DNA of 24,563 bases from a virus, in the IMG/VR virus record IMGVR_UViG_3300030333_004311, positions 1 to 24,563 of that record; one strand, given 5' to 3'. The notes under the pieces were generated by a model that saw nothing but the letters and a program-made list of their open reading frames with translations, searched no databases and was not told the origin of the DNA. Both the position numbers and the translations under genes were made by a program. Within the stretch, counting starts at the first letter, position 1. Every line of letters begins with the position of its first letter. This document shows, piece by piece, positions 7,115 through 24,563 of the stretch.

Positions 7115-7117
7115 AAA

Positions 7118-7609: not shown

Positions 7610-7627
7610 GGGGTGAGATTATTACTA

Positions 7628-7651
7628 CCATCAGATATCAACATCTGGTGG
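7628..7651 (+). other. Hairpin in short intergenic gap upstream of a GTG start
   Basis: CCATCAGA (7628-7635) pairs with TCTGGTGG (7644-7651), 8 pairs with one G-T wobble and an 8-base loop. It lies in the 49-base gap and ends 7 bases before the GTG at 7659, over the only purine-rich stretch that could act as ribosome-binding site. A translation-control hairpin is possible, but a single hairpin of this size can arise by chance. Confidence 0.35.
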
Positions 7652-7658
7652 GGGCAAA

Positions 7659-8021: not shown

Positions 8022-8406
8022 AGGGATTATTGTGGCTTTAGCAAGCCCTGAGATTTCCATAGAGAGAGATGACAAGCAATCCATTGGTTACAGAATAAGA
8101 TTAAGAGTGCATTTCAGAGCAATGAATAATGCTTTCATTTTAGGTTTGAAAGAAGCATTGGAAGAGAACGGAATAGATACTTATTATAGGAGTGAAGAGA
8201 AAGGAAGCAGACCTTATCCTTTACTTAGAATAACAAAGGTGGATAATCTATTAGATTTGTTCAGATTAATTCCACCTAAATTAGAGAACTGGAATGATAA
8301 ATTTAATTCATTTCTTGAGGTCTTAACAATAGTATCAAACAAACATCATCTAACCCAAAAAGGGTTTGATAGAATATTAGAAATCAAAGGAGAGTGGAGT
8401 ACCTGA
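7999..8406 (+). CDS. LAGLIDADG-like single-domain protein, 135 aa
   Basis: The central part matches what I know of the LAGLIDADG homing-endonuclease-like fold of archaeal and viral small proteins. It has a beta strand GYRIRLRVHF, a helix ILGLKEALEENGID, a strand PLLRITKVDNLLDLFRLIP, and a helix ending in the characteristic HHLTQKGFDRILEIKGEW. Only one domain is present and the acidic residue at the end of the canonical LAGLIDADG helix is not clear. It may therefore be a dimeric nuclease, a degraded homing enzyme or a repurposed DNA-binding protein. No intein or intron is visible next to it. Confidence 0.6.
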   Translation: MFTKEQLEGIIVALASPEISIERDDKQSIGYRIRLRVHFRAMNNAFILGLKEALEENGIDTYYRSEEKGSRPYPLLRITKVDNLLDLFRLIPPKLENWNDKFNSFLEVLTIVSNKHHLTQKGFDRILEIKGEWST

Positions 8407-9254: not shown

Positions 9255-9256
9255 AC

Positions 9257-10168: not shown

Positions 10169-10211
10169 GTAAAGAAAGGAAAAAAGAATAGAAAAAAAGG
10201 AGAATGATAAA

Positions 10212-11435
10212 ATGGAAGAACAAATGAAAGAAGAAATAGAAAAGTATGCTGAGGTTATCGGCATTACTGTTGAGGATGCTTCAAGCATCTTTGATGGTAT
10301 TGTCAAGGATAACAGTTTGGACGTAAAAACCGAAGAGGGACTCTTAGTAGCCCGAAGCGTTTTCAGGTCTAAATTCGCTCAGACAAGAGCACGAATGAAG
10401 AAAGAAGAAGGTGGAGAAGAAACGACAACAGAATACACTGGACCTACATATACCCAAAAGGCAAAAGGTTTCTTTTGGGCTGTAGAGAATGCCACTGATT
10501 GGGAAGAGAGGAATAGGAATAACATCTTGGCTGAATACCAAAGAGATGCTGATTCTGTTCTACAGGCTGGAAAGGCTGCAATGGCAGTTCAATTGTCTGA
10601 TGGCCGATATGAAGTTACTCTCGTATTAGACGGAGAGCAGAACACTAAGGTTATGGAGAAATTGCCTGAAGTAAACCCAATGCAAGTTGATGATGACCGA
10701 TGGCTTATCCCTGTAGATACTCGGAAAGCATGGGCAAGCGGTCAATCAAATCAATCTTATGGTAAACCTCTACCTGCTAACCGTTGGCAAAGAACGTTGA
10801 TGTTCATTGGAACTCTTGGTGAAGGAGAACCTCAGCAATATCAATTGAGAGTTAATGGGGAACAAGCAGTAGATTTCCATCCAAGGACTTTTGCGCTATG
10901 TGAATTTGATTGTGTGCCTAACTCTAATAACCCGTCTAATCTTAGTGCAAGGAAAGACGGTAGCACAATTAATTCACTGAATTATCTGGATGAAGAAGTA
11001 GAGATTTTGGAAATCGTTCAGAAACTATTAGGTGAGAAGATTTCTGCATTAGTCGCTCTTGACTCTTATCATGCAGATAATTCACATAAGCCTTATTCTG
11101 AGCGCATTGTCGTTACAGATGGTAATGTGGCTAATATGAATCTTCAGCCTTATGATAACGGAAATCGAGTTATTTATCTGAGTGATTTGAACGCAGATTT
11201 CGATTATGAAGGAGAAGGGTTCTCTTCAACTGCGTGTTGGGTTCCTTCTAATATTGAAATTGATTTCGGAATTGGCAGCAACATTGTTGTTGTTGGTCGA
11301 ACCTCCCAAAGAGAAGTTGATGGTGAATTGTCAAACGTTAGCATCAACGTTCTAGGGTTATATGTTGTGGATAGACATGGTAGTGCAGATGTTCCTGTGC
11401 AACCAGAGGAGGACGACGATTACAGTTGGTTCTGA
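10212..11435 (+). CDS. Probable single-stranded DNA-binding protein (RPA-like), 407 aa
   Basis: ATG 10212 follows a strong AAAAAAGGAG site. The N-terminal 65 residues are helical, then a Gly/Glu/Thr-rich linker leads into a long beta-rich region (about 80-390) with patterns expected of OB folds (ALCEFDCV, NVSINVLGLYVV). The last residues are an acidic run ending in aromatics (EEDDDYSWF), like the protein-docking tail of bacterial SSB. There is no P-loop or zinc ribbon. It sits between the clamp loader and the RecA-like gene, and no other gene here fits an SSB. The assignment is inference from tail, beta content and context; another DNA-binding structural role is possible. Confidence 0.6.
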   Translation: MEEQMKEEIEKYAEVIGITVEDASSIFDGIVKDNSLDVKTEEGLLVARSVFRSKFAQTRARMKKEEGGEETTTEYTGPTYTQKAKGFFWAVENATDWEERNRNNILAEYQRDADSVLQAGKAAMAVQLSDGRYEVTLVLDGEQNTKVMEKLPEVNPMQVDDDRWLIPVDTRKAWASGQSNQSYGKPLPANRWQRTLMFIGTLGEGEPQQYQLRVNGEQAVDFHPRTFALCEFDCVPNSNNPSNLSARKDGSTINSLNYLDEEVEILEIVQKLLGEKISALVALDSYHADNSHKPYSERIVVTDGNVANMNLQPYDNGNRVIYLSDLNADFDYEGEGFSSTACWVPSNIEIDFGIGSNIVVVGRTSQREVDGELSNVSINVLGLYVVDRHGSADVPVQPEEDDDYSWF

Positions 11436-11436
11436 A

Positions 11437-11544
11437 TAAGATAGAGTTTAGGGGTTGGCCCAGTAATAGTAGAAAATCATCTTCCATGTTCATCGGGTGA
11501 GGAGGCTTCCATGTCCTCCTTTCTACTTCCCCTTCTCAATCTTA
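11437..11544 (+). ncRNA. Structured 5'-leader element A (before RecA-like gene)
   Basis: This gap folds into nested helices: 11437-11442 with 11539-11544, 11444-11446 with 11535-11537, GGGG 11451-11454 with CCCC 11529-11532, a 13-base 5' bulge (11455-11467), AGTAGAAA 11468-11475 with TTTCTACT 11520-11527, and an inner GGAGG/CCTCC hairpin (11501-11505 with 11515-11519). GTTCATCGG lies at 11488-11496. The outer helix runs into the AAGGAG ribosome-binding site of the next gene. Element B (12437-12551) shares the same architecture. Seen directly; a regulatory function is inferred. Confidence 0.6.
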
Positions 11545-11557
11545 AGGAGAGATAATT

Positions 11558-12436
11558 ATGGGATTAACATCAATGAGTAAACCAAAGCAAGCCGTAGATT
11601 CTGAACTTCAGAAGGAACTCCAATATCAAAATTGGAAGAAATTGACTTCTGAAGCAAGGAAGGAACAATTAGCAAGGAAACATTCCTTCATGGTTCTATC
11701 AATAGAAGGCCAAGCAAAGAAAGGTAAATCGGGATTAGGTCTGGATATCAGAACAGAAAAAGAAATTGAAGAAGGACACATTATTCGTTTCTTAGATTTT
11801 GATGATGGAGCAGAAGCAACTTGGAAAACATGTTGGGATTCAGACGAGAATATTTTCGTTTATTGTCCTAATCATTACAATAGTGATGGGACAGAGAATT
11901 ATTCCTTGACTATGCAGAATGCGCTAAACTTTATCCGAGAAACAGAAGAAATGATTGCAGATGAAGACACGAATGTCAGAGCAATTGTTGTAGATGGAAT
12001 GGATAAGTGGAATGACTGCGTGACTAACAAACTTCGTTATGAAAGAGTAAAAGGTGATAGAAAGAAAATGCAAGAGCCGATTCCGCCAACAGCATATGGA
12101 GCAAGAAACATTGACCATAACGAGTTGTTTATCAGTGTCTTGAAATTGAATTGTGATAAAGTATTCATCACTCATTTGAAGCCGACATTCAATGACCACA
12201 TGAATCCTACACCAACAGGTTTCGTACCTTCTTGGAACAAAGACGTTCCAGATAAGATGCTTCAAATGGTGAGTATTAGGGACGAGAGTGTAGGTAACAA
12301 CATCAAGTATGTTGCTCGGCTCAAGGCAAGTAAAACCAATCCCGGTATGATTGGTAAGACGTGGACTATCTTTGAATCTAAAGGAAACGAAGCCACATGG
12401 AACGGTATTCCTGAAATGCAAACGAGGGAAATTTGA
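11558..12436 (+). CDS. RecA-like P-loop ATPase, Sak4/RadA-related, 292 aa
   Basis: Likely promotes single-strand annealing or strand exchange in viral recombination. The start is ATG 11558, eight bases after AAGGAG. Walker A GQAKKGKS spans residues 51-58 and Walker B RAIVVDGMD 141-149 (Asp146). A RecA-core alpha/beta pattern follows, with VFITHLKP near 210 and a C-terminal ARLKASKT-like strand. There is no N-terminal DNA-binding domain as in full RadA, which fits the compact phage Sak4 group. It follows the SSB candidate, a common pairing for Sak-type annealing systems. ATPase call firm; subfamily moderately sure. Confidence 0.8.
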   Translation: MGLTSMSKPKQAVDSELQKELQYQNWKKLTSEARKEQLARKHSFMVLSIEGQAKKGKSGLGLDIRTEKEIEEGHIIRFLDFDDGAEATWKTCWDSDENIFVYCPNHYNSDGTENYSLTMQNALNFIRETEEMIADEDTNVRAIVVDGMDKWNDCVTNKLRYERVKGDRKKMQEPIPPTAYGARNIDHNELFISVLKLNCDKVFITHLKPTFNDHMNPTPTGFVPSWNKDVPDKMLQMVSIRDESVGNNIKYVARLKASKTNPGMIGKTWTIFESKGNEATWNGIPEMQTREI

Positions 12437-12551
12437 TTCACTACGGGGTTTGCCAAATAAAAACAACACAGTTCATCGGCTCTTTTCTCGCAGACTTGCG
12501 AGAAGTGCGGCAAGGGAGGGTGGTATCTTCCGGTTGTTCCCCATTAGTGAA
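12437..12551 (+). ncRNA. Structured 5'-leader element B (before PCNA)
   Basis: TTCACTA 12437-12443 pairs with TAGTGAA 12545-12551, GGGG 12445-12448 with CCCC 12539-12542, then a 13-base 5' bulge (12449-12461), AACAAC 12462-12467 with GTTGTT 12533-12538, and a perfect hairpin TTCTCGCA/TGCGAGAA (12485-12492 with 12497-12504). TTGCC 12450-12454 could pair with GGCAA 12509-12513 as a pseudoknot. GTTCATCGG lies at 12471-12479, as in element A. The element ends just before the AAGGTGAT site of the PCNA gene. A regulatory role is inferred. Confidence 0.6.
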
Positions 12552-12565
12552 AACAAGGTGATAAT

Positions 12566-13345
12566 ATGGAAATAGAAGTAAACAAAAAAGAGATTGTTGA
12601 AGCGTTGAAAAATGTAGAGATGAAAGGAAAATGGGCCACTTCAGGTGGGCTATCTTCAAAGTCTTTGGGAAATTATATTTCTTTTCAATTAGAGGATAAC
12701 TCTCTATTATTGATTAATTCAGATGAATCAACAACAGTCATAGAATCTATATCTGTTGATTCTGAAGATGAAGGTTCTTTCGTTTTAGATATTGAAACTC
12801 TAAAGAAGTACTTGACTAAAATGAATGATACGATTACATTTGAAATTGGAGATACAATCGTAATGAAGTCTGATGGTAAAAGAGCAACAATGCCTGTTGT
12901 TATTGAGCATCCCTTTCATGGTAGAATTGGTAGATTTATTTCGCAATGGCCGAACCTTTCCTTTGAAGAAGAATTAGAGAAGATACCTACTATTGGTTCA
13001 ATGAATCTAACCTGTGCTATTCAGATGACAGGAGAACAATTGTTCGATGCGATTGATGCTTGTGAGATTGTTAACAATGGAGTCTACAAAATTGATTATG
13101 TAGAAGAAGATGAGTTAAGCGAATCTAAGTGTGTTATCTCATCTGAAGAAATCATCTCATCTTATCGAGAAGAGATTGAATATTTATCCTCGATTGGGGA
13201 ATCTTCCACTGTTCTTTTCAGTGGACCATTACACCGATTCTTCGGTAAGAAAGACACTATCAATGTCTTCATCGGGGATGACCAACCAATAATTATGATT
13301 AGTAATAAGAGCGCATTGATACGTGCTCCAAGATTGAATATTTGA
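12566..13345 (+). CDS. pcn: PCNA-like sliding clamp, 259 aa
   Basis: A ring-forming processivity factor that tethers the polymerase, ligase and nucleases to DNA. ATG 12566 follows AAGGTGAT. The length is close to archaeal PCNA (about 245-250). The sequence has the two-domain beta pattern, a central charged linker, and the closing strands IIMISNKSALIRAPRLN, where the APR near the C-terminus matches the PCNA IAPR signature. It is divergent elsewhere, as viral clamps often are. Its neighbours are the polymerase and clamp loader, and several of them carry PIP-like tails that would bind this protein. Confidence 0.85.
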   Translation: MEIEVNKKEIVEALKNVEMKGKWATSGGLSSKSLGNYISFQLEDNSLLLINSDESTTVIESISVDSEDEGSFVLDIETLKKYLTKMNDTITFEIGDTIVMKSDGKRATMPVVIEHPFHGRIGRFISQWPNLSFEEELEKIPTIGSMNLTCAIQMTGEQLFDAIDACEIVNNGVYKIDYVEEDELSESKCVISSEEIISSYREEIEYLSSIGESSTVLFSGPLHRFFGKKDTINVFIGDDQPIIMISNKSALIRAPRLNI

Positions 13346-13354
13346 GGTGAAGGA

Positions 13355-13474
13355 ATGAGAAGAAAAACACCCGCACGCTGGACATTGAAGAATCTACGTC
13401 AATTCTATTTTTCTAAATTGAAAGCAAAAGTTGTCACTGATGAATATGAATATGAGGAATGGGAATATCAGTGA
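13355..13474 (+). CDS. Small protein with basic head and acidic Tyr/Glu tail, 39 aa
   Basis: ATG 13355 follows GGTGAAGGA. The first 27 residues are basic and aromatic (RRKTPARWTLKNLRQFYF), the last 12 very acidic (DEYEYEEWEYQ). The bipolar charge suggests a peptide that bridges a nucleic acid and a protein. It overlaps the polymerase gene by 16 bases, so translation is likely coupled. Function unknown. Confidence 0.55.
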   Translation: MRRKTPARWTLKNLRQFYFSKLKAKVVTDEYEYEEWEYQ

Positions 13475-15138
13475 TTATAACTTGGATAGATAGAGATAAG
13501 TCTATCAAAATAAGATGGAGAGATGAAAAGAATAATCGTAAAGAGAAAAACATAAACGACTTTGAACCTTATTTCTTTATTCGTTCTACTGATAAAAGAC
13601 CAGAAACATACAAGACTCGACATTATATTGGTCAAGGTAAATCAATTAAGCAAACTGGATTCTTCAAATATAAGACTGGAAATTACTACAACCTGAATAA
13701 AGAATCTCTGACAAAGGTATTCTATTCTCACCCTAAAGATGCAAAGAATGCAAGAAAGGTCTTTGCTGCTACTTGGGAAGGAGATGTTCCTATTCTCCGC
13801 AGATATTGCGTTGATGAATTGAAGACTGTTCCTGAATACGAATTACGTAAATGGTATTGGGATATGGAATGGCTACCAGATGAACACGAACATGGTGGAG
13901 CAATTACCGCAATTAGTGTATATGATAATTATACGAATAAAATCAAACTGTATTGGTGGAGTCATTGGCACGATAAATCAAACCAAATTATGAGAAGATT
14001 CAATTCCGAAAAAGCAATGTTGGAATGTTTCGTAAAGGACATGCAAAAGCAAGACCCTGATATGTTAATTGCTTGGTGGGGATTACAGTCTGACGTTCCT
14101 AAATTGATTCAAAGATTATTCGAAAATGGTATTGACCCAAGGGGCCTTTCTCCATACAAGGAAGTAAAGGGAGTAGGATTCAATCATATAGGGAAATTAG
14201 AGTATAGTGGAATTGAACAACCTATACGTGGGCGTCTTTGTCTTAACTTAGATTTAGCATTTGAAAGACAATGGATGGATGCTCAAAGAGGAACCCTACC
14301 TTCAACTTCATTAGAATATTGTGCGAGCGTTTCTGTTGGTGAAGGGAAGAAAAAGGAATCTAAATTTACTGATAGGAATGAATTCTTTATGAAAGCGTGG
14401 GAAGAAGATACCACGAATTATTTGGAATACTGTATGCAAGATTCAGAATTACTCTACAGGATAGATGAAGAGATGGGATTGAGTGAAGGAGTATTAGCAA
14501 TCCAAAAGTTGGTTAAAGCACCCTTTGAGGACTGCTTCTTTGTCAGTCATATGGGGAGTACATATTTCATGAGAAACGCATGGTGGAAAGCCCCAACGGG
14601 TGAGTATGCTGAAAAGAAAGAATATGATGGAGCACTCATCTATAATCCGCTTGATGAAGGGACTAATGGATTACACACTAATGTTGCTGCATTCGATTTT
14701 GCCTCCCTGTATCCATCATGTATTCTTGCAAGGAATATATCTTGGGAAACTAAGAGTGAAACAGAAACAGAATTCGCAGTTAACATAAGGACACCAAGAG
14801 ACTTTTCAGATTGCATACAAGAAGATTGGAAATATTACAAGACAGATGAGTTGGGTCTTTTGCCAAATGCCATCGCTACTTTGAAACCATTGAGAAAGGA
14901 ATACAAGGCTAAAATGTTAGAGGCACTCAAATCTGAAAATAAGAAAGACTACATCAAGTGGAATTCTATGCAAATGGCAACTAAGCGACTATTGGCTTCT
15001 TTCTACGGTGTAGTGGCTCTACAGGGCTTTGGATGGTATGATGTGGATTTGGCTGCAAGTATAACGGCAAGTGCAAGAGAAGCAATTAGAGAAGCAGCAT
15101 TCAAAGTGAGAGAAATAGGAGAAGAGGTGGCAGCGTGA
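13459..15138 (+). CDS. polB: Family B DNA polymerase, N-terminal part (exonuclease, motifs A and B), 559 aa
   Basis: The larger piece of a split replicative polymerase. The proofreading exonuclease looks complete: Exo I DMEW (Asp135, Glu137), an Exo II-like GLQSDVP (Asp212) and Exo III YCMQD (Tyr324, Asp328). The polymerase palm and fingers carry motif A FDFASLYPS (Asp413) and motif B KRLLASFYG (Lys509-Gly517). The protein stops after AREAIREAAFKVREIGEE plus VAA, exactly where family B enzymes run into motif C. Motif C is on the gene starting at 15233. The final VAA is encoded by the GGTGGCAGC junction motif of the inserted microgene. The two products should assemble into one enzyme. Confidence 0.95.
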   Translation: MGISVIITWIDRDKSIKIRWRDEKNNRKEKNINDFEPYFFIRSTDKRPETYKTRHYIGQGKSIKQTGFFKYKTGNYYNLNKESLTKVFYSHPKDAKNARKVFAATWEGDVPILRRYCVDELKTVPEYELRKWYWDMEWLPDEHEHGGAITAISVYDNYTNKIKLYWWSHWHDKSNQIMRRFNSEKAMLECFVKDMQKQDPDMLIAWWGLQSDVPKLIQRLFENGIDPRGLSPYKEVKGVGFNHIGKLEYSGIEQPIRGRLCLNLDLAFERQWMDAQRGTLPSTSLEYCASVSVGEGKKKESKFTDRNEFFMKAWEEDTTNYLEYCMQDSELLYRIDEEMGLSEGVLAIQKLVKAPFEDCFFVSHMGSTYFMRNAWWKAPTGEYAEKKEYDGALIYNPLDEGTNGLHTNVAAFDFASLYPSCILARNISWETKSETETEFAVNIRTPRDFSDCIQEDWKYYKTDELGLLPNAIATLKPLRKEYKAKMLEALKSENKKDYIKWNSMQMATKRLLASFYGVVALQGFGWYDVDLAASITASAREAIREAAFKVREIGEEVAA

Positions 15139-15236
15139 GTCAATGTATAGAATGTGAGAAACCTGTTCCTCAAAAAGAATTGATTGATGGGGATTTTTGT
15201 TTTGAGTGTTGGTATAAGGATGAGTGGAAGAGATGA
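15135..15236 (+). CDS. Zinc-ribbon microprotein lodged between the two polymerase genes, 33 aa
   Basis: GTG start in a GTGA overlap with the polymerase stop; its own stop overlaps the downstream polymerase start (ATGA). Two clean pairs, CIEC (residues 4-7) and CFEC (22-25), make a minimal zinc ribbon. It is like the microproteins of the first 5.5 kb and the one at 17006. The upstream junction (GAGGTGGCAGCGTGA) is of the same type as junctions in that train, which suggests a cassette insertion. It might help the two polymerase parts assemble, but no sequence feature shows this. Confidence 0.65.
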   Translation: MSQCIECEKPVPQKELIDGDFCFECWYKDEWKR

Positions 15237-16159
15237 AGGTAGTATATGCACACACTGATTCTTTGTACGTCCCTGTTCCCTCAATAGAGATGGCTCAAGA
15301 CATTCAGAAAGTATTGAATGAGCACATACAACAAAATGTATTTCCTAATATTATGGGATTAGAAGACCACCCAATGGATTTAGAATTCGAGAAATACTAT
15401 TCTGTATTAGGAGTAGGAGCAACAAGAAATAGAAATGCTGGTTACATTAATTGGAAAGATGGAGTATATCTTGCTGAACCTGAGTTCTTCGCTACAGGGT
15501 TCTCCGTCAAGAGAATAGCCGAATCCAAATTAGCGAAAGAGGTACAGAAGAAAACCTTAGAGATGTGGATTAATCAGAAAACAGAACAAGAGATTGTTAC
15601 CTTTGTTAAGAAAAAATATAATGATGTTCTTAAAGGTAGAATAGATAAATTAAACTTAGTTAAAAGAAGTAGAGTCAAAGAGAATAGATTGACTATAAAA
15701 TGTCGTTGTGGTAAGAAATACAATGTAGATTATGTTAGAAAATTATTGAGTATATTGCCTGATTCATTATGTGAAAAGGATACCTGCAATAGCAAATTAA
15801 TATCTTGCACTACTGTAGAAAACAAAAGACCCACATTTGGCGGAGGGTTTGCTGGAATGCTCTATTACAATGAGCACGTAAATCCTCAACAGAAATTAGA
15901 TGATTCGTTTTATCATATCAAATGTAAATTTAATCCGAATCAAAAACAGACCTTTACTAATTGGAATGGTAAAGAGAATAAAGCGGGATATATAGCCGTT
16001 AGAAATTTAGAAGAATTGGAACCCTTTGAACCAGATTGGGCCTTCTTAGCAGAGGCTGAGGTTCTCAAAAAGGTGAAGCCCATATTTGATGCAATGGAAT
16101 GGGACGCATCACAAATAAAAATAGATGAAAGTCAAACAAGTTTAGGAGATTGGTTTTAA
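15233..16159 (+). CDS. polB: Family B DNA polymerase, C-terminal part (motif C, thumb, PIP box), 308 aa
   Basis: Start taken as ATG 15233 in an ATGA overlap; GTG 15224 is an alternative. It begins directly with motif C, VVYAHTDSLYV, where the usual DTD is HTD: the catalytic Asp9 is kept but the first Asp is His7. Next come a KKRY-region equivalent (YYSVLGVGATRNRNAGY) and the thumb pattern TGFSVKRIAESKLAKEVQ. An unusual Cys cluster follows (Cys157, 159, 180, 185, 192). The C-terminus is QTSLGDWF, a canonical PCNA-binding PIP box. Together with the gene at 13459 this makes a complete polymerase of about 865 residues. Confidence 0.93.
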   Translation: MKVVYAHTDSLYVPVPSIEMAQDIQKVLNEHIQQNVFPNIMGLEDHPMDLEFEKYYSVLGVGATRNRNAGYINWKDGVYLAEPEFFATGFSVKRIAESKLAKEVQKKTLEMWINQKTEQEIVTFVKKKYNDVLKGRIDKLNLVKRSRVKENRLTIKCRCGKKYNVDYVRKLLSILPDSLCEKDTCNSKLISCTTVENKRPTFGGGFAGMLYYNEHVNPQQKLDDSFYHIKCKFNPNQKQTFTNWNGKENKAGYIAVRNLEELEPFEPDWAFLAEAEVLKKVKPIFDAMEWDASQIKIDESQTSLGDWF

Positions 16160-17004
16160 TGGAATACACGTATCAATGGAATCCCGAATGGGAAGAAGAC
16201 CCCTCAATGCCGCAATTAAAAGTAACAAAATCATCTTTGAATACTTTTGAGTTTTGTAGGAAGCAATATCAATTCAGTTATGTAGAGCGTATGAAGAGTG
16301 AGCCTAATGCTGCAATGGCAAGAGGTTCAGCCGTTCACGATTCCTATGAAAATTTTTACAATGAATTCAATCTAAAGAAAGCAGAGAATTTAGACCAAAG
16401 TAGTTTGTTCCAATATTGTATAGGTTTGTTTCCTATAGATGATTATGGAGAAGTTTACCAAACTATGGCTGCTTTTGAAACTGAAAGATTCATGGCGTCA
16501 AAGGTAGAGAAATCTCTGGATAGTTATCTACCAGTGGGCAACGAAGTAGCATGTAATGCTAAACTCTTAATCAAGAAAGATATCAATCCTAAGTTTGAAT
16601 TGAAGAGGGATTATACTGTTCATATACAAGGTATCATAGATAGAGTATTCATAGAAGGGGAAGGATATATTCCTGTAGAATTGAAGACTGGAGTATGGAA
16701 GGATAGAAAACAAACTCACATGCGAAACGAAATGGCCTTCTACAAGGTGCTAATGGATGCTGACCCTGATTGTAATTTTGACCCAATTACTCATTGGGCT
16801 TGGTACTATCCAGACTCAAATTATTTTCAGGTTGAGGAGGTCAAGAAAAGAAACCAAACTAACATCCCTAAGAGGATTGCTAAGTTAATTTACGCATATG
16901 AGCAGGGCATATTCCCCGCTTCCTACTTTCCAAATAAGTGTCAGCATTGTTCCTTTATTGGTATATGCGATTCAGCACAACAGGCGGAACTATGGGCGTG
17001 GTGA
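16159..17004 (+). CDS. Cas4/RecB-like PD-(D/E)XK nuclease with Fe-S cluster, 281 aa
   Basis: Start ATG 16159 shares one base with the polymerase stop (TAATG); the longer frame from 16150 uses TTG. The nuclease motifs are GSAVHDSYENF (His60), Asp161, the VELKTG core (Glu174, Lys176) and a NEMAFY motif near 190-195 that matches the QxxxY position with Glu in place of Gln. Cys33, then Cys261, Cys264 and Cys270 at the C-terminus, form the four-Cys 4Fe-4S set of Cas4 and AddB nucleases. There are no cas1, cas2 or CRISPR repeats nearby, so its role is probably DNA end resection for recombination or replication. Confidence 0.9.
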   Translation: MEYTYQWNPEWEEDPSMPQLKVTKSSLNTFEFCRKQYQFSYVERMKSEPNAAMARGSAVHDSYENFYNEFNLKKAENLDQSSLFQYCIGLFPIDDYGEVYQTMAAFETERFMASKVEKSLDSYLPVGNEVACNAKLLIKKDINPKFELKRDYTVHIQGIIDRVFIEGEGYIPVELKTGVWKDRKQTHMRNEMAFYKVLMDADPDCNFDPITHWAWYYPDSNYFQVEEVKKRNQTNIPKRIAKLIYAYEQGIFPASYFPNKCQHCSFIGICDSAQQAELWAW

Positions 17005-17005
17005 T

Positions 17006-17167
17006 TTGTCCTGCAAAAATTGTAGGAAGCCTCTTGGTCAGATAGAGAATAAAGATGAAAAATGCATCGAATGTGGGAGAGAGATAGTTCACTACAATAA
17101 AGAGTTGAATTTTTGGGATAAAATAAAAATTAAAATTAATACTTGGAGGAATAGAAATGAAGGATAG
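17006..17167 (+). CDS. Zinc-ribbon microprotein, 53 aa
   Basis: The only in-frame start near the nuclease stop is TTG 17006, so the start is uncertain. CKNC and CIEC, near residues 3-6 and 20-23, form a zinc ribbon similar to the one inside the polymerase locus. A basic amphipathic helix follows (WDKIKIKINTWRNRNE). It overlaps the next gene by 11 bases and carries its GGAGGAAT ribosome-binding site. Confidence 0.6.
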   Translation: MSCKNCRKPLGQIENKDEKCIECGREIVHYNKELNFWDKIKIKINTWRNRNEG

Positions 17168-17618
17168 AATATTAGAAAAAATAAATAATAAAAATTGGAA
17201 GTTTCATGAACTTTTAAAATTAAAAGATGCGGCAGAAAAGGTCGCTGAAGAATTATATCATGAATTAGAAGTAACAACTTTGTTAGATATAATATGGAAT
17301 AAGAAAGTTGGTAGTGGAACTTGGGGTTCTGCATTCAAGAAACATGTGATTGAAGAATTAGAAGATGAAGTTATGAAGGTATTCCAAGATAAATTTGAAT
17401 CAGCCACAGTTAATTTCGACGAAGAGGAAGCACCCACCATTATAGAGGAAGCACCCGAAAAGCCTGCGTCTTTAACTGAGAAATATAATAAAAGTGAAGA
17501 CCCAATGAAAGACCTCATTGAAGGGAAAGATGTTCTTGTTGAAGAAGAACCTACTCTTGAAGAAAAAGATGGCATGGTTAAGACTAGAGCGGGTAACGTG
17601 AAAGTAAAGAGGGTATAG
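17157..17618 (+). CDS. Hypothetical acidic protein, 153 aa
   Basis: ATG 17157 follows CTTGGAGGA. The first 85 residues are helical and mixed-charge (KLKDAAEKVAEELYHELE, then AFKKHVIEELEDEVMKVFQDKF). The rest is an acidic, Pro/Glu-rich, probably disordered tail with repeats of the type EEAPTIIEEAPEKPA, ending in a short basic strand. No catalytic or metal motif. It lies between the nuclease and primase genes; a scaffold or adaptor role is possible, and I do not recognise the family. Confidence 0.7.
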   Translation: MKDRILEKINNKNWKFHELLKLKDAAEKVAEELYHELEVTTLLDIIWNKKVGSGTWGSAFKKHVIEELEDEVMKVFQDKFESATVNFDEEEAPTIIEEAPEKPASLTEKYNKSEDPMKDLIEGKDVLVEEEPTLEEKDGMVKTRAGNVKVKRV

Positions 17619-17619
17619 A

Positions 17620-17775
17620 ATGGTATTTGATGAGATGCTAGAAGGACAAAAGAAACTAACAAAAACGATGGAAGAAATACATACCACATTAAGATTCAGT
17701 AATCGGATAATCATGATGGTGAATGTAGTTAATATTGCAACAATTATTGTGGTTGGTCTGGTGTTATTGAGATGA
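17620..17775 (+). CDS. Single-pass membrane microprotein, 51 aa
   Basis: ATG 17620, one base after the previous stop, with GAGGGTA as a weak ribosome-binding site. An amphipathic helix (residues 1-28) is followed by a hydrophobic helix from 29 to 50. The layout is that of a tail-anchored peptide. Overlaps the primase start by ATGA. Function unknown. Confidence 0.6.
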   Translation: MVFDEMLEGQKKLTKTMEEIHTTLRFSNRIIMMVNVVNIATIIVVGLVLLR

Positions 17776-18854
17776 AATTTCCAAGAGAAGTTTGGCCAAG
17801 TGCAAATAAGCAAACGAACTCTTTCGCCAGTAAAAGAAAATTAGTTCACAGTCAAAAAGAATTCAATGATTTTGTTAAACTATACACTGGCAAAATGAAT
17901 TGCTTTACTTCAGTATATGACTATGATGAGTACACTGAGAAGCAAGCAATTGTATCAACTGTAATTCTTGATAGGGTATTTTTGGATTTTGATGCTCATC
18001 ATGGTGATGTTAACCCTATTACTGGCGCTCAAATAATTAAACCAGAAGCGATTGGAAAATGCTTAGAAGATTTATTCTTAGTCTTAGACTACTTACATTC
18101 TAAAGATTACAAATATGATATGTCATTTTCAGGTAGAGGATTTCATGTATATGTTTACGGGGAACCAACAAAAGACATTCGTAGATTAACTGCTTTCTTT
18201 AATCAAGTAAAACAATACACTGTTAATGGGACTTTAGATAGTTCTGCTATTTCCAGTAGAAGATTAAGACGTATTCGCAACACTATGAATATGAAAGCGT
18301 CATATGGAGAAGGTTGCTATTATTGCATACCTTTGGATTATTCTGATTTAGAAAAGAAGACATTTATTGATGACTTACTAGATATGGCTAAGAAGCCTAA
18401 TTTTACATCTATTACTTACAGGGGAGATAAGTTAGTATCTTGGCCTGAAGTACCACCCATTGAGGAATCAGAAATAGAAGCAGAAGTAATCAATGTGGGA
18501 AATCTACCTATGCCCCCTTGTATGCATAGTGCGATAATGGTTGAGAATCCAACTGATGAAGCAAGAGCCTATCTTGTTAGTTGGTACAAAGACTTACTAT
18601 TATGGGCTGACCCCAATGTAGGATTTACAGATAGTAAGGCCACACCGAGTTTAGAGTCGAGAAATAAAATAACGAGTAAAATAGTAAAGGAGATTAAACA
18701 CTTACATGAAGAACATGAAGTTTGGTTAGACTTCAAAGAGAATGTCACTAAGTATAGAGTGAACTTCATTGTAGAAGGAAACTATAGTTTCCCTAATTGT
18801 GATAAACTAATATCTAATGGATATTGTATAGGAAAATGCTGGAGGATGAAATAA
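17772..18854 (+). CDS. Archaeo-eukaryotic primase, PriS core fused to PriL-type Fe-S domain, 360 aa
   Basis: Synthesises primers for viral replication. ATGA overlap start. The catalytic half shows the AEP motifs: VFLDFDAH (Asp72, Asp74), SFSGRGFHVYVYG (Ser/Gly-x-Gly-x-His, His125) and a third motif around LDSSAISSRRLRRIRNTMN (Asp156). The C-terminal part from about 245 has PPC (Cys250) and then Cys343, Cys352 and Cys356 in the order expected of the PriL 4Fe-4S domain. Cellular archaea encode the two subunits separately; here both are on one short chain and the rest of PriL is missing. The Fe-S assignment rests on the Cys pattern and flanking residues. Confidence 0.88.
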   Translation: MKFPREVWPSANKQTNSFASKRKLVHSQKEFNDFVKLYTGKMNCFTSVYDYDEYTEKQAIVSTVILDRVFLDFDAHHGDVNPITGAQIIKPEAIGKCLEDLFLVLDYLHSKDYKYDMSFSGRGFHVYVYGEPTKDIRRLTAFFNQVKQYTVNGTLDSSAISSRRLRRIRNTMNMKASYGEGCYYCIPLDYSDLEKKTFIDDLLDMAKKPNFTSITYRGDKLVSWPEVPPIEESEIEAEVINVGNLPMPPCMHSAIMVENPTDEARAYLVSWYKDLLLWADPNVGFTDSKATPSLESRNKITSKIVKEIKHLHEEHEVWLDFKENVTKYRVNFIVEGNYSFPNCDKLISNGYCIGKCWRMK

Positions 18855-18950
18855 ATGAAAGAAGGAAAACAAAGAACGCTATATGAATTTGGATTAAGAA
18901 TAAATGGACAAACAAGCCTACTTGACTTTGTATCGGAAGAAGAAGAATGA
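18855..18950 (+). CDS. Micropeptide with two PIP-box-like motifs, 31 aa
   Basis: ATG 18855 immediately follows the primase stop and follows GGAGGATG; its own stop overlaps the next start (ATGA). The peptide holds KQRTLYEFGL (Gln6, Leu9, Phe12) and GQTSLLDFVS (Gln19, Leu22, Phe25), then an acidic tail. Both follow the PCNA-binding Q-x-x-L-x-x-F pattern, and the second closely resembles the C-terminal PIP of the polymerase here (QTSLGDWF). It could crosslink or occupy two faces of the PCNA ring, or bring the nuclease encoded next to it to the clamp. Function inferred. Confidence 0.7.
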   Translation: MKEGKQRTLYEFGLRINGQTSLLDFVSEEEE

Positions 18951-19642
18951 CTCTGATAATAGATAGTAGAGAGTCATCTGATTTATCTGAAGAAGTTGAA
19001 GAAAAAGCAAAGAAGATGAATATCCCTGTAAAGAAACAATGGATAGAAGTAGGGGATTATGTAATTGGTAACGTATGTTTTGAGGCTAAATCTACTCATG
19101 ACTTTTTATCTTCAATAGTGAGTAAAAGGCTGTGGACTCAATTAGATAACATGGATAGATGTTATGAGAATAATATCGTAATTATCTACGGTAGTTTGCA
19201 GGAAGCACTCACATATACGAAGTATTCAGCCAAGTACAACAGTATGCCAAGACAAAGAAAAATACAACTACTAACCAATAATTTCTATGGTGGTATAGGT
19301 CGCATCATGCTTGATTCAGATACCAAACCCCTTTGGGTCAAAGATGCTTATGCAGCCGCTTCAATCATCTGTAGTGTTGCTAAGATGCAGCCTGTAGATA
19401 GACCACCAATTAAGCCTCATATTTTCAAGAGGCAGACTACTGATGACATCAGAATAAACATGTTAACGAGCATAAAAGGTGTTAGTGAAAAGAAAGCAAA
19501 GACACTTTTAAAACAATACGGGTCACTTATGGAAATAGGTGATTGCGATAAAAGAGAATTGTGTTCCTTAGAAGGGATAGGGGATACAACAGCAGACAGA
19601 ATATTATCTGTCTTTAATTCCGAAAAGGAGGTTAAACAATGA
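18947..19642 (+). CDS. XPF/ERCC4-type structure-specific nuclease with helix-hairpin-helix, 231 aa
   Basis: Cuts branched or flapped DNA. ATGA overlap start. The nuclease core has IIDSRES, VGDYVIG (Asp37), and then EAKSTHDF, where the signature ERK is EAK (Glu46, Lys48, Asp52 kept). R-x3-Q follows (Arg61, Gln65). Residues about 165-225 hold two helix-hairpin-helix units (SIKGVSEKKAKTLL and SLEGIGDTTADRIL) for DNA binding. There is no helicase part and, unlike crenarchaeal XPF, no PIP box at the C-terminus. It overlaps the helicase gene by ATGA. Likely removes flaps or resolves forks during viral replication. Confidence 0.9.
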   Translation: MTLIIDSRESSDLSEEVEEKAKKMNIPVKKQWIEVGDYVIGNVCFEAKSTHDFLSSIVSKRLWTQLDNMDRCYENNIVIIYGSLQEALTYTKYSAKYNSMPRQRKIQLLTNNFYGGIGRIMLDSDTKPLWVKDAYAAASIICSVAKMQPVDRPPIKPHIFKRQTTDDIRINMLTSIKGVSEKKAKTLLKQYGSLMEIGDCDKRELCSLEGIGDTTADRILSVFNSEKEVKQ

Positions 19643-21198
19643 ATTACGATGAAGAATATGGCCACGATGAAGAAACATTAGATGAAGAACAAGAATTAGT
19701 TCAAGAGGTTGATTTACCTGCTATTGTTAGGAATTGGGAAAAGGTGGCAACCTCTTATTCTAGATTGAACAATATACCAGCAATAATAGGGTTCTATTCT
19801 CTATTAGGAGATATGGTCAAAAATATGGTAGAGATACCTTTCGGTGAAACTACTAACGATACTAGAATTCATTTCTGTTGGATTCAAACTGCAAGGTCAG
19901 GAAAAACTACTCTTCTAACGTATGTTCTAACTCCAGTTGCTAAAGAAGTGTATAAAGAATTACAAGATGACCCGTATATTGATTCTGATGTCATTAACCT
20001 CACTGATTACAATACTTCTTCTTTGATAGGTAGTCATTTTGATAATCCAGATTTTAACGAGAATGCTGAAGAAATATTCAATCAAACGATGGAAGCCATA
20101 GATAATAATGAATTATTGAATATTGATGAAAGGATTCAACGTATTAATGAAGCCACCACAATAAGGGATAATTCTCAAGAAAGATATGTAATTCATTATG
20201 GACCTATCAACGGGGAAGGGATATGGTTTGCAGATGAATTTGAAGGAAGTGGAGTCTTCAAAGATAAAAATCATAAAGAAAATATAAACATTGTATTTCA
20301 AACTTTAATGAATAATTTCCATAGTGGGGCAAACGTTTACGAAAAAATATTGACGGGTAAACCAACTATAACTCTCGACTCTAAATATACAGTTATTGCC
20401 TGTACTTTTCCTCCAGAACATCTATACAAAACAGTAGCACAAAAGGGGATATTACAACGGTTTCTTCCTTATATTTGGGATGTACCTGATGACATTATTA
20501 CTGGTATGAGAAAAGATGTTATGAGTAAATTTGGAACAGTTTCAAAAAACCCCGGTCCTCCTTTACAGTTGAAAACAGGATTAATTAATTTATACAAGTT
20601 AACTAAAGAAAGATATGAAAAAGTAGGTAAAGACCCACTCCAAACCATAACTTACCATCCTACTGCTAAAGATGTAATGGATATGGAACATGATAATTTA
20701 TTGAGATATATTGACAACGTTAATCCTAAAATAAGGAAAGTAATCAGATTATTCGAAATGAATTTGATTGAATTCATTGGTAAATTAGCCGTCCTTAATT
20801 GCATCTCTATGTCAGCAGGTATTGCTAAGGAAAAGGAAAGATTCATTGTTCACGCTCAGAATGTAAGACAAGGTGCTTACATAGTGCGAAAATGCTACAT
20901 GGCTCTTGTAGATTGGTTAGAAACTGCTATCAAGATAGATAGAAGGACAATGATTACCAAGAGTAATTGGAAAGAATTCCAACAAGCATATGAGACCTCT
21001 AAGGAAAAAGCAAAGGGAACGGAAACTTTAGATGGAGGATATGTCTGGAAAAAATTAGTCTTAAATGAGGCGGGTAGGATATTACAGCAGGGTAAGGTCT
21101 GGATATACAAAAAATACAACGACCTGAGTGAGATGTTTGAAAGCCAAAAGAAAGGAAGATTAGTCTATATTAGACCTAAAACGGAGGAAGAAAAATGA
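19639..21198 (+). CDS. P-loop ATPase, candidate replicative helicase, 519 aa
   Basis: Acidic N-terminus (about 25 residues), helical region, then Walker A TARSGKTT (84-91) and Walker B GIWFADEFEG (194-203, Asp199 Glu200). About 75 residues on come YTVIACTFPPE (sensor-1-like) and KGILQRFLPYIWDV, which resembles the arginine-finger RF motif of MCM and of phage DUF3987-type helicases. A long helical C-terminus and a possible winged-helix end (KKLVLNEAGRILQQGKVWIYKKY) follow. No other replicative helicase is in the window and it follows the primase and nuclease, so fork unwinding is the best guess. Its family (MCM-like or DUF3987-like) is unsettled. Confidence 0.7.
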   Translation: MNYDEEYGHDEETLDEEQELVQEVDLPAIVRNWEKVATSYSRLNNIPAIIGFYSLLGDMVKNMVEIPFGETTNDTRIHFCWIQTARSGKTTLLTYVLTPVAKEVYKELQDDPYIDSDVINLTDYNTSSLIGSHFDNPDFNENAEEIFNQTMEAIDNNELLNIDERIQRINEATTIRDNSQERYVIHYGPINGEGIWFADEFEGSGVFKDKNHKENINIVFQTLMNNFHSGANVYEKILTGKPTITLDSKYTVIACTFPPEHLYKTVAQKGILQRFLPYIWDVPDDIITGMRKDVMSKFGTVSKNPGPPLQLKTGLINLYKLTKERYEKVGKDPLQTITYHPTAKDVMDMEHDNLLRYIDNVNPKIRKVIRLFEMNLIEFIGKLAVLNCISMSAGIAKEKERFIVHAQNVRQGAYIVRKCYMALVDWLETAIKIDRRTMITKSNWKEFQQAYETSKEKAKGTETLDGGYVWKKLVLNEAGRILQQGKVWIYKKYNDLSEMFESQKKGRLVYIRPKTEEEK

Positions 21199-21422
21199 AA
21201 GCAACTTGGGAAAATAAGTATGTGGTATTTGACGTGCAAGACGGACCTAAAACTATGATAGAAGCATTGAACACCGAAGGAGTGGATGGTTGGGAAGTAG
21301 CCTCTATTGTCAGTGTTGCAGGGAATAAATTATGCGCTTTTTTGAAGCGTGGAGATTACACCGTAGAGCCAACACCAGATGAAGAAAAGAAAGAAGAAGT
21401 ATTGGCACTATGGGGGAAATAA
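21195..21422 (+). CDS. DUF4177-like small protein, 75 aa
   Basis: ATGA overlap start after GGAGGAAG. The pattern W-x-KYVVFD, IEALNTEGVDGWEVASI and LCAFLKRG matches, as I remember it, the small DUF4177 fold (KVV...LN-x-GxEGWELV...FLKR), followed by an acidic tail ending VLALWGK. Function of that family is not established; here it sits between a helicase and an exonuclease. Confidence 0.7.
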   Translation: MKATWENKYVVFDVQDGPKTMIEALNTEGVDGWEVASIVSVAGNKLCAFLKRGDYTVEPTPDEEKKEEVLALWGK

Positions 21423-22022
21423 ATGTCAAATGTTATGGCAATTGATTTAGAAACTAAAAATCTATCATCAGATATAGGTGGGTGGGGAAACACCCACATG
21501 TTTCTTGTTTCCACAGTAACAACTTGGAATGGGAATACTGGAACCATTTATGTCGATGAGCCAGTGTCTGATTCTTTTGTTAAATCAGGGGTGCAAACAA
21601 AGCCCCTTAATGAATTAAAATTTGATTTAGATGAGCACTTCAAAAAGGGTGGACTTCTGTTAGGTCACAACATTGTGTCTTTTGATTTACCAGTTCTAAG
21701 AGATGCTATGGATATTTATTGTATCCGAAAATATATGTCTCAACAACAATACATTGACACAAGCCAATATCTCCTAAAGGAAAGGGGAGAAAGATACGCA
21801 CTGAATAATTTAGTTGACCACACATTAGGAAGGCAAAAAACGCTACACAGTATGGATGCTCCTCGATTATGGAAAGATGGAGACTACGATGCGGTAGTAG
21901 ACTATTGTTTAAAAGACTCACAATTAGTATATGATTTGTGGAAATATGGACAAAATGAAGGGACAGTAAAGGCTTTTAATATAGACCAAGAGGAGGAAAT
22001 AGAGATGGAGGTGAATTGGTGA
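21423..22022 (+). CDS. Stand-alone DnaQ/RNase H-like 3'-5' exonuclease, 199 aa
   Basis: The start ATG directly follows the previous stop. The three exonuclease motifs are in order: AIDLETKN (Asp8, Glu10), LGHNIVSFDLPVL (the N-x3-FD Exo II pattern) and YCLKDSQLVYDL (Tyr-x3-Asp Exo III). They resemble those of the family B polymerase exonuclease domain. The polymerase at 13459 already has its own proofreading motifs, so this enzyme probably acts elsewhere, for example in primer or end processing. The tail is acidic (DQEEEIEMEVNW). Confidence 0.85.
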   Translation: MSNVMAIDLETKNLSSDIGGWGNTHMFLVSTVTTWNGNTGTIYVDEPVSDSFVKSGVQTKPLNELKFDLDEHFKKGGLLLGHNIVSFDLPVLRDAMDIYCIRKYMSQQQYIDTSQYLLKERGERYALNNLVDHTLGRQKTLHSMDAPRLWKDGDYDAVVDYCLKDSQLVYDLWKYGQNEGTVKAFNIDQEEEIEMEVNW

Positions 22023-22177
22023 TGAGTACAGGAGAAGTCTTCGGATGGATTATGTTTATCATTTTCATTAGCATTTTATTCTTCGCCGCCTTCGGTAGTA
22101 CTTCTATTACAGAAGAAACTGTCGAGGATTACATCAGTAATCTGATGAAAGATGAAGATATAAACGTTAGAAGATAG
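22022..22177 (+). CDS. Single-pass membrane microprotein, 51 aa
   Basis: Shares one base with the previous stop (TGATG) after GGAGGTGAAT. Residues 6-25 form a Phe/Ile-rich membrane helix, followed by an acidic helical tail (ITEETVEDYISNLMKDED). No function assignable. Confidence 0.65.
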   Translation: MSTGEVFGWIMFIIFISILFFAAFGSTSITEETVEDYISNLMKDEDINVRR

Positions 22178-22179
22178 AT

Positions 22180-22311
22180 ATGGTTTTGAAAAAGAAATGT
22201 ATAGCGTGTGGAAAGTATAGCGTCCCAAGACGAATCAAAGGAGCCTACATAGGCTCAAATGATATCATCAAAATTTGGGAATGTCGGGTCTGTCTTCACT
22301 TGTGGAGATAG
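22180..22311 (+). CDS. Zinc-ribbon microprotein, 43 aa
   Basis: ATG 22180, two bases after the previous stop. It is basic (MVLKKKCIACGKY) with CIAC (7-10) and CRVC (35-38) pairs and aromatic residues around the second knuckle, as in a small zinc ribbon. Similar in kind to the microproteins near the window start. Confidence 0.6.
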   Translation: MVLKKKCIACGKYSVPRRIKGAYIGSNDIIKIWECRVCLHLWR

Positions 22312-22357
22312 TAACAATTATACAATCTAACCAAGTGTAGAAATTAAAGTGACCAAC

Positions 22358-22531
22358 ATGTCAGTGGGGATAGGTGTCATTAGTTTTGGTCTATTCCTCC
22401 TATTCTTGTTTGCTTTCTACTTCACTATAATGACTCAAATCAATAAGGTGTTTGAAGAGGCACTATCAGATATTTTTGCTGAAGGTGAAATGCAAGAATT
22501 GGCTTGGTCAGGTCTTCACAACAAAAAGTAG
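22358..22531 (+). CDS. Small membrane protein, 57 aa
   Basis: The start is ATG 22358 or GTG 22349; neither has a clear ribosome-binding site. Residues 2-26 are a long hydrophobic helix rich in Phe and Leu, followed by a charged helix (FEEALSDIFAEGEMQELAW). It is the last plus-strand gene before the terminator. A holin-like role is possible from shape, but not shown. Confidence 0.6.
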   Translation: MSVGIGVISFGLFLLFLFAFYFTIMTQINKVFEEALSDIFAEGEMQELAWSGLHNKK

Positions 22532-22532
22532 G

Positions 22533-22570
22533 GCGAGGGGCTTCGGCCCCTTGCTCTTTTTTTTTATTTT
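22533..22570 (+). terminator. Hairpin/U-tract terminator of the plus-strand block
   Basis: GCGAGGGGC (22533-22541) pairs with GCCCCTTGC (22546-22554), 9 pairs with one wobble, around a TTCG tetraloop, followed by TC and nine T residues (22557-22565). It lies two bases after the last plus-strand stop. Its form is that of a bacterial intrinsic terminator; the U-tract alone would also suit archaeal termination. Confidence 0.85.
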
Positions 22571-22638
22571 CATTTTTATTGGGGTAGATTATTATTCCCT
22601 ATCTTATCTTCATTTAAAAGTGACTAAAAATGAAAGAT

Positions 22639-22710
22639 GACTTTTTTCAATAGAATTTCAACATTACACTTTTTTTCTTCACGGTTTATAACGTATTCCG
22701 ACTTTTTTCA
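22639..22710 (+). repeat. Direct repeat of GACTTTTTTCA in convergent gap
   Basis: The 11-mer GACTTTTTTCA occurs at 22639-22649 and 22700-22710, with another T-tract (seven to eight T) near 22670. The whole gap 22570-22716 is very AT-rich and has no plus-strand gene. On the plus strand the T-runs could act as backup archaeal termination sites after the hairpin. No other structure is seen. Confidence 0.4.
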
Positions 22711-22716
22711 CAAATT

Positions 22717-22824
22717 TCACCATAATAGTCCCGATTTTTCTAAAATATAATCAATATGGCGAATTCCCGTACCTATCAGATAACCAGCAAGAAGAAAAAA
22801 GACTGAACCAGAAGTGACAGTCAT
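22717..22824 (-). CDS. Single-pass membrane microprotein, 35 aa
   Basis: Minus-strand frame beginning with ATG at 22824, six bases after the stop of the fibre-like gene, with GGAAAT upstream. Residues 6-22 are hydrophobic (SVFFLLAGYLIGTG), followed by a short charged tail. It is co-oriented with the fibre gene and may be translated from the same transcript. Short, so only moderately certain. Confidence 0.5.
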   Translation of the reverse strand: MTVTSGSVFFLLAGYLIGTGIRHIDYILEKSGLLW

Positions 22825-22830
22825 ATTTCC

Positions 22831-24563
22831 TCAAGCAGCAGGTAAAGATATCCAACCTTCAGTTCCATTCAATCCGTGAGAACCACTTGTAGAACCAAAT
22901 TGCCCATCAGTATAGGCCATTAGAGTTATTGATTGCATACTAGTTAATGTAATTGTATTTGCGCTAGTAACTAACGAATGAGCAGTAGAACCCCCATCTA
23001 TTAAATCTGAACCAGAACCACTCATGATGCTACTATTATTAGGTATAATTGTAACATCTCCCCCACTAATATTTTTGAATATGAAAAACATTTGTGCTAC
23101 CCCACTTGCAGAAGGTAAACGATAAGCGTGAGCAGTAGAACTAGCATGATTTAGACAAATTATTGTTTTAGTTAAAGTTAAGTTATCTACCCCACCTCCA
23201 CCAGAATTAACTACTTCTACTGGTTCTAAAGAAGTATAACCGTTAGTGATTAATCCGGTAGTAGCAGTAACAGTAGTAGTCGCTGTAAGAGCACCGCCAG
23301 CAGTTACGTTATCTGAAGTATCCATCGTAATTGTAGTTCCACCATCAGATGCCTGAATTACGTTTCCAGCAACTCTTATTTTCCCATCAGAAGTGATTCT
23401 GAATCCTTCATCTCTTGTTCCACTACCGCTATGCGGGCTAAATACAATATCAGTAGCACCAGTACCTGTGTTTCTTAATTCCCACTCAATGTCTCCAGCA
23501 GGAACAGTATTCCAATATCCCTCAATACCTATTCTTTCTCCAACTGCGTTAACTGATGAATCTCTTAATCTAACCATTAAATTTTCAGTAGAAGACGATA
23601 ATCTTTCTACATGTAATGGTTGTGCAGGGTCATCTGTTCCAATACCAACCTTACCTGTTGAATCAATGAACATCTTAGTGCTATTTGTCCCATTAGTGGA
23701 AGTTTGGAAAACAAGTTGACCATCTTCACTACCATTTGTATTATCTTCTATACCACCATATATTGCAGCATAATCATGTCCAGCAGTAGCAGAGGCAGAA
23801 TCACCCAATTGGAAATGTATTCCTGTACCATAGCCGTTACTATTGGCTTCTCTTTCAATAGTTAGAAGTTGATGGCCTGCGCCTGAAATATGAAGTTCAC
23901 CGTCTGGAGAAGAAGAACCTATACCTACCCTTCCATTTTTGATAACCATTGTGTCATTATCAGAACCAGCAACTTTAGTTCTAAATACAAGAGTACCATC
24001 TTCAGTGCCATCTGAGTAATCAGATATTACGGCAAATATCTGAGCGTAATCAATTTCTTCAGGTGAGCCTGCATCATTTTTACCGGAGAAAATTAAAGTC
24101 GCTATGGAATCATCATCTGCTGGACTTGAACTATTTCTGTAGAGTTTGATATCAGGAGAAGTTGAACCACTTGTGGATGTACTTTCTAATAATAATAATG
24201 GGGTCGTGTCACTATCTAATGCATATTTAATGTGTAAAGGAGCATCGGGTGTGGTTTCTCCAATACCTACATTTCCACCATTGAATAAAGCAGCATAATT
24301 AGTATCACCACCTGAAACTGTAACATCAAGACCAGTAACAGTTTGAGTTCCAGTACCCGCTCCTACAACATCAACATCCATACCTATTGCAGTTGAAGTT
24401 CCTTTACTCGATGAAGTAACATCTAAATCAATTCCTATATCGTTATGGGCAGCAGTTCCGCTATTTTGGGTTGCTCTATCAAAATCAATTTTTAATGTGG
24501 TAATATCTTCAGCACTAACAACAGTTGCTGCTCTATCTTTATCAATTATAACTCCGCCAAGAG
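22831..24563 (-). CDS. Repeat-rich tail-fibre-like structural protein, 5' end outside window
   Basis: The minus frame is open from the window edge (24563) to the stop at 22831, giving 576 visible residues; the first ATG inside (24381) is probably internal. The sequence is Gly/Ser/Thr-rich with VGIG-x4-P-x3-LH repeats (VGIGETTPDAPLHI, VGIGSSSPDGELHI, VGIGTDDPAQPLHV), typical of marine phage fibre shafts. Near the window edge shorter repeats of about 16 residues occur (GIDLDVTSSS, GMDVDVVGAG, GLDVTVSGGD). The C-terminal 130 residues form a distinct beta-rich head with Gly runs. No chaperone domain is visible. Likely a trimeric host-contact fibre; the family assignment is by repeat style. Confidence 0.8.
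   Translation of the reverse strand, partial: LGGVIIDKDRAATVVSAEDITTLKIDFDRATQNSGTAAHNDIGIDLDVTSSSKGTSTAIGMDVDVVGAGTGTQTVTGLDVTVSGGDTNYAALFNGGNVGIGETTPDAPLHIKYALDSDTTPLLLLESTSTSGSTSPDIKLYRNSSSPADDDSIATLIFSGKNDAGSPEEIDYAQIFAVISDYSDGTEDGTLVFRTKVAGSDNDTMVIKNGRVGIGSSSPDGELHISGAGHQLLTIEREANSNGYGTGIHFQLGDSASATAGHDYAAIYGGIEDNTNGSEDGQLVFQTSTNGTNSTKMFIDSTGKVGIGTDDPAQPLHVERLSSSTENLMVRLRDSSVNAVGERIGIEGYWNTVPAGDIEWELRNTGTGATDIVFSPHSGSGTRDEGFRITSDGKIRVAGNVIQASDGGTTITMDTSDNVTAGGALTATTTVTATTGLITNGYTSLEPVEVVNSGGGGVDNLTLTKTIICLNHASSTAHAYRLPSASGVAQMFFIFKNISGGDVTIIPNNSSIMSGSGSDLIDGGSTAHSLVTSANTITLTSMQSITLMAYTDGQFGSTSGSHGLNGTEGWISLPAA
23608..24051 (-). repeat. Two diverged 55-56-residue repeats in the fibre-like gene
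   Basis: Counting from the internal ATG at 24381, residues 111-165 and 203-258 align: DYA-I---I-D---G-EDG-LVF-T, then M-I---G-VGIG---P---LH. At DNA level they have diverged, so the duplication is old or under sequence-diversifying selection. Confidence 0.6.

Follow-up and report, generated by a model that had tools for sequence, protein, structure and literature searches.

In the window, by which we mean the whole 24,563-nucleotide stretch of viral DNA that was analysed, a short open reading frame on the plus strand (18855–18950) translates as MKEGKQRTLYEFGLRINGQTSLLDFVSEEEE, a micropeptide of 31 residues. It lies between the gene of a primase-like protein (17772–18854, plus strand; PHROG 16345 primase, E 2e-7) and that of an ERCC4/XPF-type nuclease with a helix-hairpin-helix domain (18947–19642, plus strand), for which both domains scored above the Pfam cut-offs (ERCC4 9.8e-15, HHH_5 2.6e-10). 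The primase stop codon, TAA, occupies 18852–18854, and the micropeptide ATG begins at the very next base, 18855, with a Shine-Dalgarno-like GGAGG (18841–18845, plus strand) located 9 nt upstream of it within the last primase codons. At the other end, the micropeptide stop and the nuclease start (18947) overlap by 4 bases, ATGA. The ORF coordinates and the domain matches thereby confirm the arrangement given in the first-pass annotation, namely a gene between a primase and an XPF-like nuclease with a 4-base overlap.

The last codons of the micropeptide, GAAGAAGAAGAA (18936–18947, plus strand), are purine-rich and resemble a ribosome-binding site ahead of the nuclease start. Among the viruses that carry the gene, the codons preceding the nuclease are GAGGAA or GGAGGA, one of which occurs there in most relatives, or GGAAGAAGAAGAA, as in the window. 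The acidic tail described from the window alone is indeed present there, but a run of glutamates is not conserved, the forms at this place being EEEE, DEEE, FEE, LED and EGGR. We infer from the codons that the tail is at least partly a nuclease ribosome-binding site encoded as glutamates. In relatives that lack the micropeptide, TGGAGG at the primase end directly precedes the nuclease start; in the carriers, TGGAGG precedes the micropeptide.

Two PIP units and their conservation

The micropeptide contains two PCNA-binding (PIP) motifs, Q6-x-x-L9-x-x-F12 and Q19-x-x-L22-x-x-F25, with the glutamines exactly 13 residues apart, so the motifs and the spacing originally reported hold in both sequence and coordinates. 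Unit 1, QRTLYEF followed by GL (18870–18890, plus strand), has Q, T, L, E, [FY] and G invariant in ten distinct homologues, and unit 2, QTSLLDF (18909–18929, plus strand), which resembles QTSMTDFY of p21 (PMC10087552), has Q, L, D and [FY] invariant. The homologous micropeptides are 27–33 residues long and all of them keep the 13-residue spacing; their flanks vary, and in 10 of 10 distinct peptides both units retain the anchors, that is, Q, a hydrophobic residue (L) at +3 and an aromatic one ([FY]) at +6. We looked among the homologues for a gene that was kept while Q, L or F was lost and found none, the only change at these positions being an exchange of F and Y, and this conservation strongly supports reading the micropeptide as a double PIP. 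The second aromatic of a stricter PIP definition, at +7, is absent, with G or V there in all homologues. Archaeal PIPs have been defined as QxxLxxFx (PMC7776575), and single-aromatic PIPs are usual in the haloarchaeal RNase HII sequences that we read.

Over a 22-codon core, the homologues gave a pN/pS of 0.376, and by this ratio (about 0.38) the gene is under purifying selection. Compared by entropy with every possible set of six columns, the six anchors gave 3.5%, a modest result taken alone, because T, E, G and D within the units are also invariant and the F/Y exchange penalises the anchors. When the window was dinucleotide-shuffled 200 times, 1.5% of the shuffled windows contained a pair of such motifs in one short ORF; given this chance rate, the window sequence on its own is only suggestive of a real gene. 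A chance ORF is rejected by the conservation across relatives, and the aligned homologues show a genuine gene that is conserved and under selection at its PIP residues. The two units, in which 18 to 28 of 36 nt are identical, seem to have arisen when a 13-residue unit was duplicated in tandem. AlphaFold2 predicted no fold for the micropeptide alone (pLDDT 69.5, pTM 0.22), and a profile search for homology to a solved protein returned weak, chance-like matches (UPF0135 protein SA1388, E 0.09).

The purine-rich end of the ORF raises the question of whether the gene is mainly a translational spacer that supplies the nuclease with a ribosome-binding site, the peptide being incidental. GAGGAA or GGAGGA in the last micropeptide codons before the nuclease start would suit such a role. 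Against it, relatives without the micropeptide start the nuclease from GGAGG in the primase end, and the selection acts on amino acids, with all PIP anchors kept, which leaves the spacer explanation very improbable.

Distribution among related viruses and in cells

Profile and pattern searches found the same small gene after the primase in 11 other IMG/VR contigs, and a search of 2.9 million viral contigs with the exact degenerate tandem-PIP pattern gave 11 matches, all carrying this gene. With the nuclease as the query, 80 loci were fetched, and the micropeptide follows the primase in those whose identity is 74% or higher. In a tree of four neighbouring proteins, the carriers form one clade (UFBoot 99), and its sister clade (support 98) fills the slot with an unrelated micropeptide, which is hydrophobic and ~29 residues long. 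Contigs more distant than these, 66 in all, pass from the primase straight into the nuclease or have another ORF in the slot. No equivalent of the micropeptide was found elsewhere in the whole records of 18 more distant relatives (best profile E 0.026), nor were close relatives found among named phage records at the micropeptide locus. The simplest history is that the gene was gained once, on the stem leading to the carrier clade, although the sister clade may instead have lost it. We rejected the idea that the presence of the micropeptide is tied to the type of clamp, as sister viruses without it share the clamp type (~60% identity). The sister-clade micropeptide itself, found in the primase–nuclease slot of loci L009–L012 and L065, is conserved and hydrophobic (MKEIKLAISLLVIRLIIWWDSLVAKIRRE, MGKVKEVLLVWFMVLLITWDSIIQKLRGR) and likely membrane-associated.

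These distributions bear on the earlier proposal that the micropeptide recruits the nuclease in trans. As an adaptor of this kind it would tether the PIP-less XPF-type enzyme (or the primase) to the clamp, binding PCNA through one unit and the enzyme through its remaining part. The two genes are adjacent, with the 4-base overlap both in the window and in the related magrovirus G001, none of 80 homologues of the viral nuclease ends in a PIP, and Sulfolobus XPF requires PCNA for its activity (PMC7776575). However, nearly all conserved residues lie in the PIP units, leaving no evident part to bind an enzyme, the relative G006 has two unrelated ORFs between the peptide and the nuclease, and about 70 relatives retain the PIP-less nuclease without the peptide. 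The gene separation and the peptide-less relatives weaken the proposal, and we regard such an adaptor as improbable. We also considered that the nuclease gains a PIP where the peptide is missing, and found no such gain among the 80 homologues; the window nuclease has no canonical PIP of its own. At locus L006, the interval between the micropeptide (2427–2516) and the nuclease (3001) contains two additional small ORFs, which have Cys pairs and probably bind zinc.

A scan of cellular genome contigs with the exact pattern gave 7 matches, and the only convincing PIP pair among them is in the tail of a Halovenus RNase HII (L111:970–1668), whose end, QSALSEFGDEDRDQRSLSEF, carries two PIPs that are likewise 13 residues apart. 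The other six were discarded, two Planctomycetota contigs being short DNA repeats and the rest looking like chance. A single PIP was present in 22 of the 23 haloarchaeal RNase HII sequences that we read, and a pair in the remaining one. The micropeptide units are of the same Q-x-x-L-x-[DE]-F type as the C-terminal PIP of archaeal RNase HII; there, however, the PIPs are the tail of an enzyme, whereas in the micropeptide they are the whole protein.

We assigned the virus and its lineage to marine archaeal viruses of magrovirus-like type from gene content and the literature, which is not a formal classification, and the virus group points to a Marine Group II host. Our literature search, whose coverage was partial, found no tandem-PIP microproteins in archaeal viruses. 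The window falls into two parts by similarity: positions 1–5255 (GC about 0.42–0.47) are 89–99% identical to L199 (IMGVR 3300030329_005488), whose DNA beyond the matching part has no match to the window, and positions 5248–24563 (GC about 0.36) match G001 at 80–87%. The switch near 5250 is due to recombination or to a chimeric assembly.

The viral clamp and other PIP-tailed proteins

The candidate target of the micropeptide is a viral sliding clamp of PCNA fold, 259 residues long (12566–13345, plus strand). By sequence profile alone it matched only beta clamps, and weakly; it has a PHROG processivity-factor match and no Pfam match. Its AlphaFold2 model, built on 15 homologues (pLDDT 89.6), has the two-domain DNA-clamp fold and the residues of the PIP pocket, and Haloferax volcanii PCNA is the solved structure that it matches best (PDB 3ifv; Z 21.6 over 216 residues, 2.5 Å). 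Matches of the model also include 1isq, in which PCNA is bound to the PIP peptide of RFC-L, and 5da7, in which it is bound to a small inhibitory protein; the identity of the clamp to archaeal PCNA structures is 16–18%. Among the homologues, P241 is invariant and A254-P255 is conserved; P241 and the A254-P255-R256 end presumably correspond to P234 and A252-P253-K254 of human PCNA, which are PIP-pocket residues. The interdomain connector (residues 111–149) is unusually long, and an extra helix is predicted in it at 118–130. Between the two magrovirus clades, the clamps share 25–36% identity, compared with about 58% for the nuclease.

The C-terminal part of PolB (15224–16159, plus strand; Pfam DNA_pol_B) ends in the PIP QTSLGDWF, so unit 2 of the micropeptide does share QTSL-D with the polymerase tail, as the first-pass annotation had it, and a C-terminal QxxLxxWF is present in 17 of the 18 relatives read. 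Aromatic tails are found on the RFC-L-like and RPA-like proteins as well, and in this virus they are WF; in related magroviruses, the RFC-L-like proteins carry non-WF PIPs (QQTLEEYI, QKTLGDYL). The micropeptide units have the Q-x-x-L-x-[DE]-aromatic core of these PolB and RFC-L-like PIPs, but the latter stand at the extreme C-terminus with WF or YL/YI, whereas the micropeptide has an internal [FY]G. The window PolB (13459–16159) is split into two genes, like the PolB-NTD/CTD split already recorded for Aoguangviridae; the split falls just before the YAHTDSLY motif, and a 33-residue Cys-rich ORF (15135–15236) lies between the halves. Two other magroviruses (L142:2436–2669 and L197:20–244) encode an unrelated protein of 75–78 residues ending in QTSL[SD]DF (RQTSLSDFKQ, VQTSLDDF), which is possibly another small clamp ligand, and small PIP-tailed proteins may be recurrent in the magrovirus group.

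The difference between the WF tails and the [FY]G units would fit another possible function, in which the micropeptide would jam the PCNA of the archaeal host and spare the viral clamp, thereby stopping host replication. The units are nearer to cellular archaeal PIPs (RNase HII, QxxLx[DE]F) than to the WF ends of the viral PolB, RFC-L-like and RPA-like proteins, the low identity of the viral clamp to cellular PCNA makes selectivity conceivable, and the virus encodes its own clamp, loader, polymerase, ligase and primase. On the other hand, the non-WF PIPs of the related RFC-L-like proteins mean that the WF contrast is not decisive, and the gene lies within the replication operon. We consider such a host-selective decoy unlikely; if true, the micropeptide would be a replication-takeover factor consisting of a peptide only, with no enzymatic or folded part.

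Proposed action at the clamp

We consider it highly probable that the micropeptide binds a clamp at all. As to what it does there, we favour a p21-like competitor, that is, a disordered, PIP-only ligand that would regulate the occupancy of the clamp pockets, because hardly any conserved residue lies outside the PIP units and the peptide has no predicted fold or other domain; we hold this reading at about even probability. We infer binding, competition and target as follows. The PIP pocket of a PCNA subunit would receive Q, L and F/Y from each 13-residue unit (consensus QTTLxxFGLxxE), and the G-[LM]-x-hydrophobic stretch after the anchors would follow the interdomain loop. With no further domain to act through, the micropeptide would work by filling pockets and so compete with other PIP-bearing proteins in the manner of the p21 PIP, and the second unit would give higher avidity by rebinding. 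Its nearest target would be the viral clamp encoded in the same operon, and host PCNA may be bound too.

PIP ligands compete by affinity for equivalent pockets, and the disordered p21 is a high-affinity blocker whose binding is strengthened by basic flanks (PMC7225939). Like the PIPs of p21 (CDKN1A) and p15, the micropeptide would be a disordered Q-x-x-[LM]-x-D-F peptide from which pocket competition is expected; unlike p21, it consists of two PIPs only, comes from an archaeal virus and has neither the second aromatic nor a CDK-binding part. Several points count against a competitor: the second aromatic of QxxhxxAA is missing in both units, the tail is acidic where p21 has its strengthening basic flanks, and the sister clade manages without the gene, which is thus dispensable for this type of replisome.

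Another protein to compare is TIP, the Thermococcales inhibitor of PCNA (PDB 5da7), which the first-pass annotation had brought up. TIP has 64 residues with a PH-like half and prevents assembly of the PCNA trimer (PMC10506467), and it possibly has an N-terminal PIP (PMC4929162). TIP serves as an analogy only, being a small archaeal protein that binds PCNA, as the micropeptide is predicted to do. A sequence relation between the two was not found, the PDB sequence search having given no TIP chain, and whereas TIP is confined to Thermococcales and has a PH-like C-terminal half in its ~64 residues, the micropeptide has 27–33 residues and no predicted fold.

The presence of two units also suggests that each might engage a pocket at the same time, on adjacent subunits of a single ring or on separate rings, as the invariant spacing between the units in all homologues would allow. 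However, the six residues between F12 and Q19 (seven steps) span at most about 27 Å, and neighbouring pockets of the PCNA ring are roughly 50 Å or more apart, as estimated from general ring geometry; the fixed spacing would also follow from a tandem duplication of the 13-residue unit. By this estimate the bridging of two subunits of one ring proposed earlier is doubtful, and we regard simultaneous occupancy in general as quite improbable. Among the three functions put forward at the outset, displacement of other PIP proteins is the best fit.

As a ligand dedicated to the sliding clamp, the micropeptide would rank with the smallest known and, to our knowledge, be the first made only of tandem PIP motifs. 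Short enough for synthesis, it would offer a ready-made natural peptide for studying how bivalent PIPs compete on PCNA, and a handle on how viruses with an archaeal-type replisome may control traffic on their own or the host clamp.
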